Below, piece after piece: positions 8,371 through 60,600 of a DNA stretch of 64,000 bases (its first letter is position 1; every line of letters begins with the position of its first letter). Source of the stretch: Brachionus manjavacas (taxonomy: Eukaryota > Rotifera > Eurotatoria > Ploima > Brachionidae); assembly GCA_019054805.1 (NCBI GenBank), contig JAHQIY010000012.1, positions 62,001-126,000 on the forward strand, read 5' to 3'. The notes under the pieces were generated by a model, which saw nothing but the letters and a program-made list of their open reading frames with translations, was not told the DNA's origin and searched no databases. The position numbers and the translations under genes are program-made.

Positions 8371-8874
8371 TAGCATGCATATTATAGGCATCTTGAAGTT
8401 GATGATCAATTCAAAATATCATTTCAATTCAAAAAGTTTATCTTTAGACATTAAAATAAATCTTTGATTTCATTTAAATAATTTTAATGGAACATGCTTT
8501 ACATGCAATGTAGATTTAGAAAATTGAAAAAAATTGAAAAATGATATAAAATTTTTATAAAAATTTTAATACTTATTTTGAATTTTTTATTTGAATTTCT
8601 TTTTTAAATTTAATTGTGAATGCTAAACACAAATACCTTTGAAATAAAAAGTCTCAAATAAACTCTACAAAAAATCATTTAATACATTTAAATATAAAAA
8701 TCGATTATCAATGGATTGAGAATATGTTTTTTCATATTTTTTTATTTTCCAAATCTACATTGCATGTAAAGCATGTTACATTAAAATTATTTGAATTCTA
8801 AACATAAACTTTTTGAATTGAAAAGAAATTTTTAATTGATCATCAACTTCAAGACACCATATTATATGCATATA
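8371..8874. mobile_element. Foldback element with long (about 170 bp) imperfect inverted arms
   Basis: The left end (TAGCATGCATATTATAGGCA, then CTTGAAGTTGATGATCAATT) reappears as reverse complement at 8840-8874 (AATTGATCATCAACTTCAAG, then TATTATATGCATAT). The match continues inward through GGAACATGCTTTACATGCAA at about 8490 and TTGCATGTAAAGCATGTTAC at about 8761. The central part is AT-rich and non-coding. It is a MITE-like or foldback element; I cannot identify target-site duplications. Confidence 0.7.
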
Positions 8875-32523: not shown

Positions 32524-33714
32524 CTAAACTCTCTCGAGCAGCAAAGCGATACCTTGACCACCGCCAATACAAGCACTGCCAACACCATACCTAGCACCTC
32601 TGCGTCTTAACTCATAGACCAAATTAGCAGTTATGCGCGATCCGGACGCGGCCAACGGATGTCCCAAAGCTACTGCTCCGCCATTGACATTAGTCTTGTC
32701 CTTGTCAAGACCCAAGGCTCGCTGCACAGCAACAAACTGAGTCGAAAAAGCCTCATTCACATCCACCAAATCAACTTGGTCCAAATTCATGTTTGCTTTC
32801 TTCAAAAGACCTTGTATGGCCGGCACTGGTCCGATGCCCATTATTTTCGGATCTACCCCACTCACATTATAGCCAACCAATCTGGCTAGCGGCTCCAAAT
32901 TGAGCTCGTTGACAGCCCTTTCGCTAGCCAGCATGATCGCACCCGCGCCATCACAAATACCACTCGCGTTGCCAGCTGTGACAGTGCCATTTTTTTTAAA
33001 AACAGGAGCCAATTTTGCCAAGTCTTCCATGGTAGCTTTTCCTCTCGGATGTTCATCTACCCAAAATTGTTCCTCTCCCTTTTTTGCTTTGAGCGTCACC
33101 GGCGCTATCTCGTCTCTGAAGACGCCTTTGTCCTGCGCAGCTTGCCATCTGTGCTGGGACCTCAGAGCCAATTCATCGGCGTCCTCTCTGCTTACTTTGT
33201 ACTGTTCGGCTAAGTTCTCAGCTGTGATCGCCATTGGCAATTGGACATAGGTGTCGTATAGACCGGCCCAGAGAGAGTCCTCTAGTTTGAGATCGACTCC
33301 GAGTCGAGTGCCGAAGCGATTGCCGCGCACTGTATATGGCGCCAAACTCATGTTCTCTGTGCCGCCGCACAACACCACCTGTGAGTCGCCCAAGGCTATT
33401 TCTTGTGCGCCATAGATCACTGACTGAAATCCGGAGCCGCACAATCGATTTATTGTGCAAGCTGGTACATTTTGTGGAATGCCAGACTTGAGAGCTGCAT
33501 GACGGGCCAAGTAGCCGGCATCTGATGAACTGTGAAGTATACTGCCCACAATCACTGAGTCTATGCGATCAAGAGGCACTTTGCTTTGCTCAATAGCTGC
33601 TTTGTTGGCTACTACTTGGAGGTCAGTGGCGTTTATGTCCTTTAGTTTGCCGCCGAATTTGCCGAATGGTGTTCGCTTGGCAGCGACTACAAAAACGCCT
33701 TTTAAAAGTGTCAT
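32524..33714 (-). CDS. ACAA2: 3-ketoacyl-CoA thiolase, mitochondrial (ACAA2-like)
   Basis: Encodes 396 residues, against 397 in human ACAA2, in one uninterrupted frame. It catalyses the last step of fatty-acid beta-oxidation, cleaving 3-ketoacyl-CoA with CoA to acetyl-CoA. The nucleophile cysteine is in NRLCGSGFQS (about residue 92). The histidine motif is NGGAVALGHPLAASG, where most thiolases have GHPLG or GHPLGAS. The second cysteine lies in SACIGGGQGIAL near the C-terminus. NEAFSTQF is also present. The N-terminus MTLLKGVFVVAAKRTPFG matches ACAA2 at the first residues, and like ACAA2 it has no cleaved presequence. No intron is seen. Codons are GC-richer than the flanks. The upstream 200 bases are AT-rich with no clear promoter motif. 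Confidence 0.96.
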   Translation of the reverse strand: MTLLKGVFVVAAKRTPFGKFGGKLKDINATDLQVVANKAAIEQSKVPLDRIDSVIVGSILHSSSDAGYLARHAALKSGIPQNVPACTINRLCGSGFQSVIYGAQEIALGDSQVVLCGGTENMSLAPYTVRGNRFGTRLGVDLKLEDSLWAGLYDTYVQLPMAITAENLAEQYKVSREDADELALRSQHRWQAAQDKGVFRDEIAPVTLKAKKGEEQFWVDEHPRGKATMEDLAKLAPVFKKNGTVTAGNASGICDGAGAIMLASERAVNELNLEPLARLVGYNVSGVDPKIMGIGPVPAIQGLLKKANMNLDQVDLVDVNEAFSTQFVAVQRALGLDKDKTNVNGGAVALGHPLAASGSRITANLVYELRRRGARYGVGSACIGGGQGIALLLERV

Positions 33715-33719
33715 ATTTT

Positions 33720-34660: not shown

Positions 34661-34922
34661 TATTATTTTTTACCGAGTTATAAGAATTTATATATAATTA
34701 TATAGTTAGAATTTATATATTCATATAGTTATAAGAATTTTTAATATTTTTTTTCAAATTTCCAAATAAAAATTAAACTCATTCTATTTCATTAACGAGT
34801 TTAATTTTAAATATGAAAATGCTTGCAATATTAACTTAAAATTTTTGAAGCATCGCATTTTTTCAATTTTATTTCAACATTGTATACATTTTGTAATTCA
34901 AACACAGAAAATTAAACCATTT

Positions 34923-35560
34923 AAAAAAAAAAAAAATTTTCTATCATTTTTATTTCTCTAAAATCTTTTTAAAATCATTATTCAAAATATGTCTTTTAAA
35001 CTTTCTTTAAATTTTTTTAAGCTTATTTACTTTATTTTTATTTTTCATTTTTCTGGCAATGTGAAATATTAGTACAAAAATTACAGTACAAAAAGTAAAA
35101 ACGCTATAATTTTTTTTCTAATTGTGTAAAAATGGTTCTGTAAACAGTACAATATTGTACAAATTTTTTAGAAACGAATACCAAGCTCTTAAAAAAATTT
35201 GCAATTTATTGCATATATTATTAATAAATTTTTTTAATGGTGTGCATTTTACAGAAAAATGCAGAGTTTTTGCAGAGCTTGGTATTCGTTTCTAAAAAAT
35301 TTGTACAATATTGTACTGTTTACAGAACCATTTTTACACAATTAGAAAAAAAATTATAGCGTTTTTACTTTTTGTACTGTAATTTTTGTACTAATATTTC
35401 ACATTGAAAAATAAAAATAAAGTAAATAAGCTTAAAAAAATTTAAAGAAAGTTTAAAAGACATATTTTGAATAATGATTTTAAAAAGATTTTAGAGAAAT
35501 AAAAATGATAGAAAATTTTTTTTTTTTTTATTAATTTTTGTACTAATATTTCACATTGCC
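34923..35560. mobile_element. Foldback transposon / large palindrome with about 255-bp near-perfect arms
   Basis: Left arm 34923-35188 and right arm 35274-35529 are reverse complements almost base for base, around an 85-nt centre (35189-35273). The only large difference is about 11 extra bases in the left arm, which complete the terminal repeat GGCAATGTGAAATATTAGTA at 35055. A third, inverted copy of that terminus ends the element at 35560 (ACTAATATTTCACATTGCC). The outer element is thus 35055-35560 by its termini, while the palindrome extends 130 bp further left. It is non-coding. Confidence 0.88.
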
Positions 35561-35584
35561 TATAATTTATGAGTAAATATTATT

Positions 35585-36395
35585 TGTACATCCTCCAGTT
35601 TTTTTCATTTAACAACAACAACGATATAGTCAACATTTATCTATGAGTTTGAAAACTTCGTCATTAGTAAAAATCAAATGAAGAAATTACAAACAACTGA
35701 GGCTACAATGATTAAGAAAATACTTAATCTCCAAAAAACATCAAGAACAAGTAATCTTCTAATTGCACTTCGTATAGAAAAGATGGAAGTTTTCAGAGGA
35801 AAAATGCTTTTCATGAAAAGGTTATTAAACAATAAAATGACAATGGATGCATTGAAAGAGCTCGAAAGAAGCACACAAGACCATCTTAGCGAAAAATCGA
35901 TATTTAAAGAATTGAATGAGCGCTTAAAAGAAAATGGAAATGAAGAGATGGATATTTCTCAGAAAATAGAACTTAAATTAAGAGATGAAAGAAACACAAA
36001 TCGGAATGGAATAACTGACTCCATCGAAGAATGCTTAGAAAATATAGGAAATAAGACTTATAGAAAAATGCTGATAGAAATAACCAAGTCCCACTAAAAG
36101 AAAAGAGAAAATTTTACCTCAAGGGAAAATCCATCGGTGAACTGGTTGTCCACCAAAGTTTGATTTGTTACTCTGCCTCCTGGATCGAAGAAAAAAATAA
36201 ATAAAAGAAATTTTGAATAATATTTAACCAAACTAGTTTAATTAACATTTTTTACAATAATTATTTAGTATGATTTCAAATATTTGTCTTTAATCTCTTT
36301 AAAATTGTTTATCTCATTTATTCTTTTTAATATTTTTTAACATCGCCTTAAAGGCGTTCACTGAAATAAATAATAATAATAATAATTGATTTAGT
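35585..36395 (+). mobile_element. Second-type LINE 3' end (RT C-terminus and hairpin tail)
   Basis: The frame from about 35640 to 36097 encodes ENFVISKNQMKKLQTTEATM, then IKKILNLQKTSRTSNLLIAL and MLFMKRLLNN. This is the conserved post-RT region of many invertebrate LINEs (LQ-x-E-x-x-I-K-x-I, ALxIE, RLLxN). The 3' end has a perfect hairpin CGCCTTAAAGGCG at about 36345, then ATAATAATAAT repeats. It is unrelated in sequence to the Jockey-like tail. Confidence 0.65.
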
Positions 36396-37140: not shown

Positions 37141-37146
37141 AAAAAA

Positions 37147-38340
37147 ATGGATTTGACAAAAATTTTTTATTTCTTTCTTCTATTGAAAATTTTTTACCAC
37201 GCCAAATGTGTAAAAATATGTCTTTCGATTGACCAAAATTTGGTAACAATATCACATTTTAGTTCATTCGAGGAATTGTCATTGGCAAAAAATTATTTGG
37301 GCCCATCTCAATCTAATCACACCATTTCCGAAATAGAATTTCGTCCATTTTATCAAATAGTTCTTCAAACCATCAAGCTAAATTATGTTCCAAATATCTC
37401 ATGGTCTCATGATTTTATTTATGTTTATTTGACCAATTTAAAAGGAATAAGTATTGACACTAAGAGAAACGGAGTCCTAATCAGATCAAGAGCATTCAAT
37501 ATAAAGTTTTCTTATTCTAAATTTGAATTTTATTACAATAATTCAAAATTTGAAAATTGCTCAATCGATTTTGTATGGGATGAGAGGCTTTTTAAAATTT
37601 TCCAAAATGTCTACTATCTAATTTTTACTTTTAGTGTTAAATTTTACCTGAACACCTGTCCTTTTATTTTCAAAAATTCAACAATTTCTCGAATAAAATT
37701 TAATGGCATTTCCGATGTTTTTATCAAACAAAATCAGCTTGGGTTCAATAGAATCGACGCTGACTTAAATTCCAGTATTTATACTATTCAAATTTTAGGA
37801 TACAAATTCGGATTATTTTCCGATTTTTTGAATAAGCATGTTTTTAGAAGTTTGAATGAAATAATTATTTTGGGAATAATTCAGTCTATTGATGAACGCA
37901 CTTTTGATCATTTGAAAAAGATCAAAAAAATAGATTTTCAATCAGAAACCATGAAAACAATTCAAAACAGTGAGTCCAAATGGATGAAGAGCTTGGCAAA
38001 AAACAATGCAAATGTGACTCTAGGTTTACATTTTTGTAACTTGGGTTTTTTGGAAAACGATTTCTGCTTTTATCATCTGATGCCATTAAATCGGAATTTT
38101 TACCTAGATTTTCCATTCTATTCAAAAAATTGCTCTTGTTTGGAAATATATTTGTTAAATTATTCCAAAAATCTTGACAAAAAAGAATCATGCACTAATT
38201 ACTACTCAAAAAAATGCATGTTTTAACATCTAATTGGATTGTGTGACAGTCAAAAGTACAAAAAAGCAAATGTCCTAACGAATCTAGAGTGGTATTTTAT
38301 CTCCGAGTCTTTAAACTTATTCTCCATAATAGGTTTACAT
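37147..38340 (+). pseudogene. Ectodomain of a receptor-like protein, with in-frame stop
   Basis: Starts with a signal peptide (MDLTKIFYFFLLLKIFYHAK) and continues for 359 residues: many Asn-glycosylation sites, LRR-like repeats (LNEIIILGIIQSIDERTF, HLKKIKKIDF) and a C-terminal cysteine cluster (NCSCLEIYLLN). A TAA at 38224 interrupts the frame, but the same frame stays open another 47 codons (HLIGLCDSQKYKKANV ... SESLNLFSIIG), reaching what looks like the start of the first membrane helix before being lost at about 38340. With the 7TM part at 39640-40625 it looks like one receptor of ectodomain-plus-7TM type. A nonsense mutation plus insertion suggests a pseudogene. A rotifer-type expanded family is my guess. 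Confidence 0.55.
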
Positions 38341-52700: not shown

Positions 52701-55700
52701 GACTTCAAATATTAATTTTATTTATTTAACTTTATTTTTATTTTATAGTTTATTCTAAAGAAGCTTTTACTCAGTACAGATAAACAAATAAAACAAAAAA
52801 AAACTGTATTTCAAGAAGCGCTCGATTGATTTGAAGAAGATAAAGTAGATGTTCACAACATGCTACAACGAAATTATAATCTATAATGAATCTATAACAA
52901 AAACCTATTATAATGAAGAAAAGAAATAAGAAATAAAAGCTCCGAAAATAAAGAAATGTATACCCTGAAGAAATTTAAAATCTATGTTGATTATGTTTTT
53001 TCTTTTTTTTTTAGGAATTACGAAACAGAATGAACTTAATTTTCCTTAACATCACTAAGAATATAAATAGGTGAATATTATTTATTTATTTGTTTTTCTG
53101 TACCGAACTATTGCTCCCTCAGAATATAAAAAAATTAAAATAAAGTTAATTAAAAAAATAAAAAATTAGTGAAATTTAAAAAAGGATAAATAAGTCAAAA
53201 GAAAATTAAAAACCATATGTTGAAATAACTAGAGGTAAGACATGTTAAAATATTGGAAAGTTCAGGAAAATTGTTAGAAAGCAATGAAACAATAGAGTTG
53301 GATATTCGATAAATCTTGACTCAAAACCTTCTCTCTATTCTTCCAACAGTCTGAAGATCAATGGAACATAATGACTTAATCTTGCCCCTGACATATCTTT
53401 CACTCAACTCAAAAAGTCGATTTAAAACTGTTAGTAGTTTAAGCTTTTTCAAAGCCTCTTGGTGCATAATATTGGATGGGGTATCATATTTCAGCTTTAA
53501 AATAGATCGAAAAGCTGAATTTTGAATAAATTGTATTTTTTTTTATATTAGTTTCTGAGATTGAATTTAAACAAGGAAAAGCATAATCCAAGATTGATCC
53601 TATCAAGGATTTGTACTGATTACCTTATGTTTTTGGTTTTAGACCCCATTTTCTATTTGAGTGATATTTTTTTAAGTTAAGCATTGAATTACAGCGCTCT
53701 TTTAATTCATCCACCATCGGACCAAAGTTAAGTTTTAACTTTTTGCTCATTATTTAAATTTTTACCATTAATTTTTAGTTCAAGATTGATTTTAATTTTA
53801 GTTTTTTTCTCAAAGATAATGCAATGTGACTTGATTGTAAAAAATCTGTCATTTTAAATGTGTAAATGGGACTTTTTTAACTATTACGAAAATTTGTAAA
53901 CTTAACAGTTGTTTTAATAAATTAGTCTTGTGTTTATATCTTTTTTTTCTATTTAATTATTATTGAGCAAGAATAAATGAATAAATAAATTTTATTATTA
54001 AAACTCAAAGTTACCAGTTACAGTGCTGCTACAATACCTTGCATTCACCATTTTTTACGTAAATTATGGTAAATTCACGATATGTTACCATATTTACGTA
54101 AAATATGGTAATCTAAAAAAGGGTATTTTTCGTAAAATGACGATATTTATTGTAAAATTCAGTGAAAAAAAAAAATTCCAAAATTTCTCGAAAAAAAACG
54201 ATTTTCATGAAACAAAATTTTATTTTGAATTTTTAAAAAAGGAAGAAATTAAAATTTGATTGAATTTTTTGACCTAAATTTACGTAGATTTTGGTAAATT
54301 TTTGTAATAAAAGGCGAAAAATGGTTAAAAATCTACAAAAAAGGAAAAATGGATTTTTTATTACATTAAATTTTTTTCAAACAAACTATGAAAATTAATA
54401 TTTAAATATTTAAGTACGAACATATTAAATTATTTTATTAAATCCAGAAACTATCAAAAATCATATATATATAGCTGTATAAAAAAAAGATATACAATCA
54501 GAATTTAATGATTTGACCAGTCACCATTTCTTTCAATTTTTACGAACAGCAACTTTTGTTGATTTTTACCATTTTTCGCCTTTTATTACAAAAATTTACC
54601 GAAATTTACCTTATGTTTCTAGAGGTAAGACATGTTTACAATGAAGAAAAGAAGCTCCGAAAATTTGAGATTTTGATTTAAATTTAAATTTTGGTCAAAG
54701 AATTCAATCAAATTTTAATTTTTTTCCTTTTTTAAAAATTCAAAAAAAAATTTGTTTCATGAAAATCGGTTTTTTTCGAGAAATTTTGGAATTTTTTTTT
54801 CACTGAATTTTACAATAATTATCGTTATTTTACAAAAAAACCCTTTTTTAGATTACCATATTTTACACGATACTGTATCTTGAGTTAAAATAAAGGTTTT
54901 CTGCAAAATAACGAGAAAAAAGAAAATAAATCGAACAAAATGAATAGGAAATTAAAAAACAAAAATTCTTTTTGAAAAATTACTCAAGCAATTATTTTTA
55001 TAAAATATTTCTAGAATTAAACTTTTTAAAAAGGCATTCATTGAAATAATCAAACAAAATTGGTACCATCTAAAAAAATTAGATACCAAAAAAAAGTACT
55101 AGATATCAAATTTTTAAATCAAGTGAAAAATAAAAAAAATGCTCTTAGTGCTCAAGTCCCCAATTAATCTAAAATAATGACTGCTCCCATTCCAGCCGCT
55201 TTCCAATAGATAACAAAACTAAACATTTTAAGCATCCAGGTAGTATCCAAAATAACAAATTATTATTAAGCTAATCAAACAAGCCCTGAATGACCAGATA
55301 AAACAAAAATTTACCACTATTAAATAATCGCTTAACACTCGGTCTATTCGAAACAGGCGTCTCGATCTCGATCTGCCTAAGCGAATCGATCAAGTCGAGA
55401 CCGCTCTCTTTCGAATATGTCCGATTTAGATCTAAACTAGAAGGTTAAGTCATCAATTTAGAAAAAAGAACAAGCAGAAAAAGCAATTACCTGCATGTGA
55501 CTCGTTGAGCATGGACTCGATTGATTTGGACTGAGCGATTTGAGGTGTTTGGGGCTCGAGGAAGCGCGACGAGGGAGTGGGCGGTGGAGCCATGTTGTTG
55601 TAGTAGGAGTGGGTGGTGCGCGTAGTGGACACGCTCCGCGAGCGCCGGTCTAGCAAAAAAACGAACCTTAAGCGAACTCTTCTCCTTTTAGTTTAGTTCT

Positions 55701-57669: not shown

Positions 57670-60600
57670 AAATAATTAATAATTTATTTAAGATAATCTT
57701 TTATCTGGTAAATATATCTTTTTATTAGATAGTGAAGAGATTTGCAAATGAAAAAGGACAGATTCTGGGGTATTATGATAAAAAATTTCCTAATGAAATG
57801 GAAGAGATAAAAAGTAAGCATTTTAATGAAAAAAAACAGCTTTAATTTTAATTGTTTTTACTAAAGAGGATTTTTTGAAACTTGTGCCAAAAAATTCTAG
57901 ATTAAAAAATATAATTAAAAAATATTAAAAAATATAAAATAAAATTAAAAATTTTAAAATTAAGGCTTAACTTTTATGTTAATTTTAAAAACTCAAAAAA
58001 AATTTATTTTAAGTTAAATCATTCTAAAGGATTTAAAACAAAAGTAAAAAATTCACAAAATTTACTTAAAAAATATACAAAGTCAGGTCATTTACTTGAT
58101 TTTAAAACGACTTATAAATGACTTAAATTTTCGTTTTTAATTGTTGATTTAGATATCCAAAGTTTTTTTAACTCGAGATTTAAGCAATGATATTTAGAAC
58201 TTGACAAGAAAGGAGAATTTTACCAAAAGTTTTTTCATATTTTCTTGTACGATCTTTATCAAAAATTTCATTTGACAAATGTGCAAGAACAATTGAATAG
58301 GATTTTGAATTATTCTCATTAATATTAATTTATAAGAAATAAATGGAAATCTTAATTTTTTTTTATTCTTTAATTAACTAAATGTTAACATTTAAATTTT
58401 GAATAAATTCAAAAAAAATTATTTATGTTCACCTCTAGAAAACTACGATTTCTTATTTTAAATATTAGGTTCAAATGGGTCTCTGTTTTAATGATTATGG
58501 CTTTTTGTTTCTTTACTCTTGTAAACATATTTATACATAAATTTATACTTGAAAAAAATTTTTACTCAAAGTTTTGATAGCTTTACTTAAATTGTGTAAA
58601 AATCATGAATGACGATGACTTCGCCATGTTTTACAACTAGCAGACTTGAAAGGGATTTAATAACTCTTTTGGCCAAAATTCCTTACAATACTGTTCGCTC
58701 ATCTCATTCCAAGACTAATTGCAATCTTAAAAATTTGACACAAAATTAGTTGGATAGACACAAAATTTACCAAGAAAAACGCATCTTTAAGTTTCATACC
58801 TATTTCGAAGAAAACGAAGTTAATTTATCAAGCTATTATTTTGATAATAAGTATTATATTTGCCAAGATTATAATTTGATCTATCATATGCATCATTTTT
58901 GTAGCTATACCTGTAAAGATTATCACAGGGTATATATTTAACATAAACATGTTTTAGCGTTAATAACTCCAGAGATTTGTGATTGATGATTTTTTAGCCC
59001 TGAAAAAAGAAGACAAAATTGAGTTATGATTAAAATTTATTTATTATATGTGAAGTTTAAGGATACTTACCTTTTTGGAAAGATTGTGTCACGAATTGTT
59101 TGTAGTGAATACGATGTTTTTTTTTTTAGAATTTATAGATTGTGCTTAAAATGAAAAAGGAAACTATTGAAAACTTTGTATATGTAACTAGATTTCAATG
59201 GATCCAGCTACCATAGATGTCTTCCTTGTAAGAAATCTCCGCAAGTATGCTTGCCGTAGCTTATTTGTTATTATTATTATTATATGACTTATTTATTTTT
59301 TTTTATACGTTATTTTTATGATTTATACTTTAATTTATTTACTCTTACACTTAAATAAATTATTAAACATTGATATTTCAAAATGTTCATTTATGTATAA
59401 ATCTTTAAGTGTATTTTTTTTTGATAGATAAAGGTTTCAATTTAATTAGAAGTGTCAAACTCTAAACAAATGTTTGGTATCAATTTTTTTAAATTTTTTA
59501 GTATTTAAAAAATGTCAGAGTCTTCATGTTATTAATATTCCTTGTAAAATTTTGAGTTCTTCAATCTGTACTGCAAGATAAGCTCGCCTCTGACAATTCC
59601 TTCTTCCGCTGAAGTCAAATTGAACTTTGCTAACCGTTCCTCATAATTTAGGCATTACTTAGTAATAAAAGTTTAATTTGCGAGGAACGAGCATATTAAG
59701 CAGACGTGAGCATGCGTACAGAATATAACGTACTTTTTAAAAAGAATTCTTGACGTAACTAAGATTAGTATACGCACAATAAAATTAAAATAGATGTTAT
59801 TTTTAAAAGAACACAATATTTTATATTTATGCATATAAAACCTAAAATTTTTTTAAATTAATTAATTAACGTCTTGTTACTCGCAATAAAAAGCCCTGCT
59901 TCTTTATCTTATTTATAAATCGTTCTGGGTGGAAAAAAGCTTGAATAAGAGTCATTAAGATCTAACCTTACACAAATTCTGAGCCAAATCAAATTCGAAA
60001 ATAAATCTGAAAAGCCATTTAGAGTAAAATTATACACCTTGACAAAAAAATGAGTATTGAAAATTATCTGAAATTTATTACACAAATAGTAATAGTCTAA
60101 ATGATCTGTATTTGAAAAAAATTCAAAATCTGTTGAAACTAAAAAAAGAAGCAATCGTAGAAATAAACGATTAAAAAAATTTATATATTTTTATTATCTG
60201 TTAAAAATGACTTATTTTATAAAAATTTCCTCTTTGCTTTTGATTAACATCGCTCATGTCACCAGCAGCATTTAAAAAAAAACTTATTCCAAAGGATTAA
60301 AAAAAAAAGAGATCATTCAGTCTTATTTAATTAAAAATATAACAAAATTTTTTTAACTAACTGCGTAACAGTACATTAGAAAAATTTTCTTTCTTATCAG
60401 ACTTGTTTTTAAGTCACAAAAATTTAAGTCAAAGTTATGACTTAAGTCAATTTAAGTCAAAATATTTTTTTTTTATTGAAGTTAAGTCAAGTCAATTAAT
60501 TTTCTGATTTAAAAAAAAAAAGATTAATTTAATAACGAGCTTTTTTTTTAATTTTTCATTTTTTTAAGTATTTAGTTTTATTTATGCAATTCTGACCAAA

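Follow-up and report, generated by a model that had tools for sequence, protein, structure and literature searches.

The locus described here lies in a window of 64,000 nucleotides from the rotifer Brachionus manjavacas (contig JAHQIY010000012.1), between two open reading frames (ORFs) at 32524-33717 on the minus strand and 37141-38226 on the plus strand; a further frame of 155 amino acids (35630-36097), borne by a repeat, stands between the locus and the 37141-38226 ORF. The locus itself comprises one copy of a dispersed MITE family and its immediate flanks. Within 35055-35560, the ORF list of the window, drawn up at a threshold of 150 amino acids, holds no ORF of at least that length. From left to right, the features are as follows.

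34908-34915, plus strand: possible extra 8 bp of copied source, AAAATTAA, past a 6-bp gap (local alignment; weak and AT-rich).
34922-35047, plus strand: F, a segment of the left flank and source of the copy, lying within a dispersed repeat of diverged copies (inverted match at 35405-35530, identity 100%).
35047-35054, plus strand: ATTTTTCT, the 8 bp of left flank next to the element, at the place expected of a target duplication, unmatched on the right (sequence and survey of copies).
35055-35189, plus strand: left arm of the MITE, with 0 substitutions relative to the family consensus (alignments).
35190-35273, plus strand: loop of the MITE, taken as 35189-35273 in the substitution count (alignment of 32 copies).
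35274-35406, minus strand: inner right arm of the MITE, mirroring the left arm and ending before the terminal CC (self-comparison).
35407-35530, minus strand: F', the inverted copy of the left flank, the TG at 35405-35406 being common with the arm tip (100% match; junction single in the genome).
35532-35560, minus strand: second complete right tip, TAATTTTTGTACTAATATTTCACATTGCC (terminus match).
35561-35570, plus strand: right flank TATAATTTAT, fitting the 3' box of the F repeat (comparison of F copies).

Comparison of the window with itself resolved two inverted blocks at 100% identity, i.e., 34922-35047 against 35405-35530 (126 bp) and, by local alignment, 35057-35189 against 35274-35406 (133 bp), which bears out the near-perfect palindrome described in an earlier sequence-only reading. 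An 11-nt gap in the left-arm tip is all that separates the two blocks, and the TG dinucleotide at 35405-35406 can be assigned to either. As regards the terminus GGCAATGTGAAATATTAG, it occurs without mismatch at 35055-35072 (plus strand) and 35543-35560 (minus strand) and again, with two mismatches, at 35391-35408 (minus strand), three matches in the window in all, where 100 shuffles gave 0.14 on average; the three termini are as that reading had them, full at 35055 and 35560 and lacking the final CC at the inner right one. The right tip at 35532-35560 directly repeats 35380-35406 over 27 bp. The left flank was also held to have been copied in reverse between the two right termini, and so it is, only over 126 bp and not 130; the copied flank starts 8 bp outside the element, with ATTTTTCT and GGC skipped. 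Scanning the window for inverted pairs (seed of 16, arms at most 1500 bp apart) reported eight pairs of at least 60 bp, among which only the palindrome at 34922-35530 reached 100%. Elsewhere in the window, an inverted repeat at 8391-8854 (stretches of 65 and 70 bp at 89%) may be a different, older element with terminal inverted repeats (TIRs), and one at 54167-54800 (116 bp at 90%, arms 402 bp apart) perhaps another.

The MITE family was delineated by searching the host assembly (114 Mb, 61 contigs), in which its typical length is 353 bp, its copies start with GGCAATGTGAAATATTAG and its ends read GGCAATG...CATTGCC. With at most 2 mismatches, the terminus gave 228 matches in this assembly and the reversed control 0. 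In the family consensus, built from 31 copies, the arms mirror each other over 149 nt with a short loop between. A target duplication accompanies 49 of the 52 other two-ended copies (8 bp in 37, 9 bp in 11 and 7 bp in one), one mismatch being allowed at 8 bp or more. From these characters, the 353-bp element is taken here to be a MITE, i.e., a non-autonomous TIR transposon, and its 8-bp duplication and GGC...GCC ends are compatible with several transposon superfamilies. A transposase partner for the family was not found, the candidate examined being a 5.7-kb copy of the same family (L061; G000:C6:4951600-4958300; 5689 bp) with GGATCCGT flanking both ends. What looks like an end of pogo type lies some 50 bp into the left arm of this copy; a gene fragment encoding CENP-B_N begins after it, and a LINE-like stretch (endonuclease-RT) comes next. 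As the CENP-B_N fragment and the LINE-like part look like nested insertions, L061 was rejected as the autonomous partner. Nesting was also observed within the family, in a 714-bp locus (L010; G000:C12:1180850-1182050) where one MITE sits in the loop of another copy, the inner one flanked on each side by the loop octamer CAATTTAT and the outer one keeping its duplication AAAATATT.

Whether the 126-bp segment could be an ordinary part of the transposon can be judged from the other copies. It does sit between two complete outer termini, yet an inverted copy of the element's own flank inside its ends was present in the window copy only and in 0 of the 52 other two-ended copies, F occurs elsewhere as a separate dispersed repeat, and a genome search tolerating up to 3 mismatches returned a single hit for the junction of the inner right arm with F'. 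It follows from the copies and the single junction that the segment does not belong to the element, and the chance that it does is practically negligible; the sequence-only reading had proposed that finding it inside all other copies would make it just the element, and none of the 52 carries it. The survey took 150 bp of flank per side and retained matches of at least 50 bp with an E value of 1e-6 or better; it scanned 76 loci including the window, of which 53 are two-ended, and left out L023 and L040 (halves of L061), L078 and L081 (refetched longer as L120 and L121) and L075 (the window). It covered part of the MITE family, namely 40 scored of 774 candidates and some of the 228 terminus matches. 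While inverted matches of at least 50 bp were absent from the 52 other two-ended copies, shorter ones occur within the flank itself in L005 (30 bp), L014 (46 bp), L026 (28 bp) and L098 (37 bp), and between left and right flanks (14-25 bp) in L001, L014, L036, L039 and L077; the similarity in L039, adjoining both ends, is weak (19 bp, 17 alike).

In the genome search, F proved to be a member of a separate and diverged dispersed repeat. The highest score for another copy, 40 of 543 candidates having been scored, went to one with 87% identity over about 110 bp; identities of up to 95% were seen in shorter stretches (58 bp). Since F and F' are 100% identical over 126 bp whereas the top-scoring copy elsewhere is at 87%, F' was copied locally and recently, and an independent insertion of the F repeat as the origin of F' was rejected on the same comparison. 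This repeat also permits the two flanks to be related to each other. A 3' box lies downstream in 17 of the 19 fetched F copies, some with changes, and in nine of the 19 it starts with the exact 10-mer TATAATTTAT, which has a single occurrence in the window, both strands considered; the box stands 27-86 bp from the F core, and 36 bp from it in the window once the flanks are joined. Six of the 19 (L042, L047, L051, L052, L053 and L057) align through the joined-flank junction and stop exactly at the last base of TATAATTTAT, the alignments of the remaining copies stopping before the junction or a few bases beyond it. Judging from these alignments, the left and right flanks most likely represent one copy of the F repeat, from which it follows that no large piece would have been lost at the site. 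Another repeat begins at 35571, L062 and L063 being similar to the window only from about there; it is short (35571-35621) and starts GAGTAAATATTATTTG. Further along, the repeat at 35631-36097 is 98% alike in L064 over at least 330 bp from 35631. On the left side, a dispersed repeat at 34733-34925, 80-89% alike in many of 40 scored copies, ends at about 34919-34927, i.e., at the outer edge of the palindrome and at the A14 tract.

Altogether, the right end of the 353-bp MITE was probably rewritten by a template switch across the base of the TIR hairpin. During synthesis of the right arm, the new strand would have folded back onto the left arm, the TIRs forming a hairpin; it would then have jumped over the hairpin base, at a shared TG (2 bp), into the left flank and copied this outwards for 126 bp as far as the A14 tract; coming back onto the right arm 27 bp short of the point of exit, it would have been completed normally. 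In the terms of a four-point switch, this would amount to (i) an exit at the right tip, (ii) an inverted flank copy, and (iii) a re-entry just upstream of the exit, the outcome being the duplication of 27 bp of the right tip and a palindrome extended by host DNA. As a hairpin jump predicts, the copied tract begins directly across the stem base from the exit point of the right arm, and the re-entry point is near the exit point in the same arm. The first junction shares 2 bases (TG), which is unremarkable as random junctions reach 2 bp in 26% of cases; the second shares 7 bases (TAATTTT) only if a 6-bp gap is admitted, and otherwise has one extra base and none shared, 7 shared bases being found in 0.5% of random junctions. 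The event was read by comparison with paralogous copies and the joined flanks only and, the arms being identical, this course cannot be distinguished from one in which the left arm and flank served as template for the whole right arm and F'.

Chimeric reads are known to arise from palindromes, and a chimeric foldback molecule from the library or assembly could have entered the contig. After F', though, the sequence continues into a further complete terminus and on to the right flank, and both junctions show small gaps. A simple foldback chimera would presumably not return in this way, and an artefact is considered improbable.

What the template-switch model alone leaves unexplained, and what counts against it, is the missing target duplication. 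The outer octamers of the window copy, ATTTTTCT and TATAATTT, are alike at 3 of 8 positions, so the copy stands without a target duplication, which leaves room for a break or a failed excision. Accordingly, break-initiated foldback repair after an aborted excision was considered, in which the transposase would have cut at one end of the MITE, the flank side would have been trimmed with the loss of one copy of the duplication, and the free strand, after folding back onto the TIR, would have primed synthesis that ran into the left flank before being joined to a right tip from the sister copy. The absence of the duplication while both outer termini are intact would fit a cut exactly at the end, and hairpin-mediated foldback with 3'-end extension figures in the account of yeast in PMC7467729. 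Moreover, all four two-ended copies devoid of duplication are of unusual length, namely the window copy (506 bp), L107 (291 bp), L109 (214 bp) and L113 (168 bp), but the duplication is retained in other odd-length copies, i.e., L004 (261 bp), L101 (227 bp), L010 (714 bp), L114 (649 bp) and L061 (5689 bp). As this scenario further requires a second source for the right tip and a transposase, for which no partner was found, and as the duplication may have been lost before the event, it is regarded as unlikely, if the most serious of the alternatives. Of the mechanisms put forward in the sequence-only reading, then, a template switch or foldback fits best, while aborted transposition has the missing duplication as its sole hint.

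The same two octamers could each be the duplication of its own insertion, two adjacent MITEs having then recombined or switched between them to leave one left end, one right tip and a flank copy. Both flanking octamers would thereby be explained, TATAATTT/TATGATTT flanks another copy (L119), and a nested MITE pair does exist (L010); on the other hand, two insertions within 16 bp would be required, and the window shows no trace of another loop or left arm, which makes this course very improbable. The target-preference scores, 1.2 for ATTTTTCT and 0.1 for TATAATTT with a family median of 0.6 and a background 95% point of 1.35, do not single out either octamer as the original duplication.

Returning to the template switch, the loop provides evidence of a different kind. 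It carries 8 substitutions in 84 compared positions, against 0 in 267 for the arms (Fisher p 8e-6), together with one inserted base; the changes fall in the first 50 positions or so, and 7 of the 8 substitutions are private to it among 32 aligned copies. No similar loop was found elsewhere, the best others being 91% alike among 40 scored of 188 candidates, and the only other strongly diverged loop among 31 aligned copies is that of L039 (G000:C10:978500-979310), with 11 of 75 sites changed. A 13-mer from the changed left half of the loop occurs in the window only in the loop, F and F', and one from the right half in the loop, F, F' and at 60171. When both sites and bases were drawn at random, a match to the left half within 1 kb of flank arose by chance in 9 of 20000 trials; with the four sites fixed and only the bases drawn, it did so in 3%. 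Taken together, the burst of loop changes and the 13-mer shared with F and F' suggest a synthesis that would have been both error-prone and prone to switching.

Beyond this locus, the arms of the family can be inspected for traces of copying from one to the other. In 44 MITE copies (one left and one right end, length 311-374 bp, window copy left out), 76 sites bear the same change in both arms, accounting for 152 of the 348 substitutions, whereas re-pairing left arms with the right arms of other copies gave a mean of 10.1 and a maximum of 24 in 1000 trials; common descent in subfamilies inflates the 76, and the re-pairing control corrects for this in part. Over half of the arm substitutions (196 of 348) are unmirrored. 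The distinct mirrored changes number 37, of which 22 are present in a single copy, and several are also found unmirrored elsewhere. Mirrored changes are to be expected if synthesis can jump between arms, and the passages of PMC8604942 on yeast describe inverted-repeat arms homogenised by template switching. The window copy, with 0 changes in its arms, adds nothing to the mirrored count. As far as such substitution patterns go, hairpin-templated copying between the arms would appear to be recurrent, as the counts suggest, the window locus being a case that ran past the end.

A broader proposition, advanced tentatively and with rather more doubt than belief, is that MITEs with long TIRs act as self-templating hairpins, where repeated jumps between arms would keep these identical and an occasional overshoot at the tip would add host flank. 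If true, there would be a transposase-independent route for the growth and change of TIRs and the capture of host sequence, with the window locus as a fresh intermediate, and the upkeep of identical arms would be linked to the capture of host DNA. A single locus would display a palindromic transposon taking up adjacent DNA, its hairpin lengthened without transposing, and overshoots at a low rate would be predicted in other MITE families with long TIRs.

With respect to expression, the predicted RNA fold of 34908-35560 has an energy of -368.6 kcal/mol for a mean of -94.6 kcal/mol in 20 shuffles, so that the hairpin is predicted to be very stable as RNA. It may conceivably be transcribed and feed small RNAs, as the sequence-only reading proposed. 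No function of the locus is indicated by these sequence analyses.

Among known systems, the locus can be compared with processes of template switching already described. In short-range template switches, as portrayed in PMC7954356 and PMC8794818, nearby sequence is reverse-complemented with a return near the exit, and perfect hairpins are created or extended, both as here, where nearby sequence was copied in reverse complement over 126 bp at 100%; the account in PMC8794818 extends to the creation and repair of hairpin stems. Microhomology at the switch points is usual in this class without being strictly required. The 126-bp copy lies at the extreme of the great-ape switches, whose copied length has a median of 12 and a maximum of 128 in the figures of PMC7954356, and differs in that the hairpin pre-existed as the inverted repeats of a transposon. 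Foldback from single-stranded hairpins is likewise part of the yeast work in PMC7467729.

Pack-TIRs, attributed to gap filling or FoSTeST in PMC8277862, are TIR transposons that take up host sequence through template switches, mostly from nearby sources and with a microhomology of 1-36 bp (median 2). Similarly, F' lies between the ends (35406 to 35532) with its parental copy F at 34922-35047. The filler here, however, is an inverted piece of the sequence directly flanking the element itself, set at the very tip in symmetry with the stem, whereas the Pack-TIR breakpoints given in that source are skewed to the interior; an example shown there has a flanking target duplication, unlike the window copy. 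In the description of small inverted triplications (SITs) in PMC13334657, a foldback at the 3' end or an inverted switch is followed by a return to the original template, as proposed here. The averages quoted there for DUP/IN/DUP are 148/160/148 bp, while in the window the direct duplication involves only 27 bp of the right tip, short of two directly repeated outer units, and the hairpin stem was already present as a MITE. For Galileo, of the P superfamily, PMC4168063 portrays TIRs that grow by recruiting sequence, possibly passed between arms; the sequence recruited is, in that account, internal or from inserted transposons, whereas the window locus adds flank at the outer end. Among the literature matches listed, no title concerns the copying of flank at the tip of a MITE, which is not a claim of absence.
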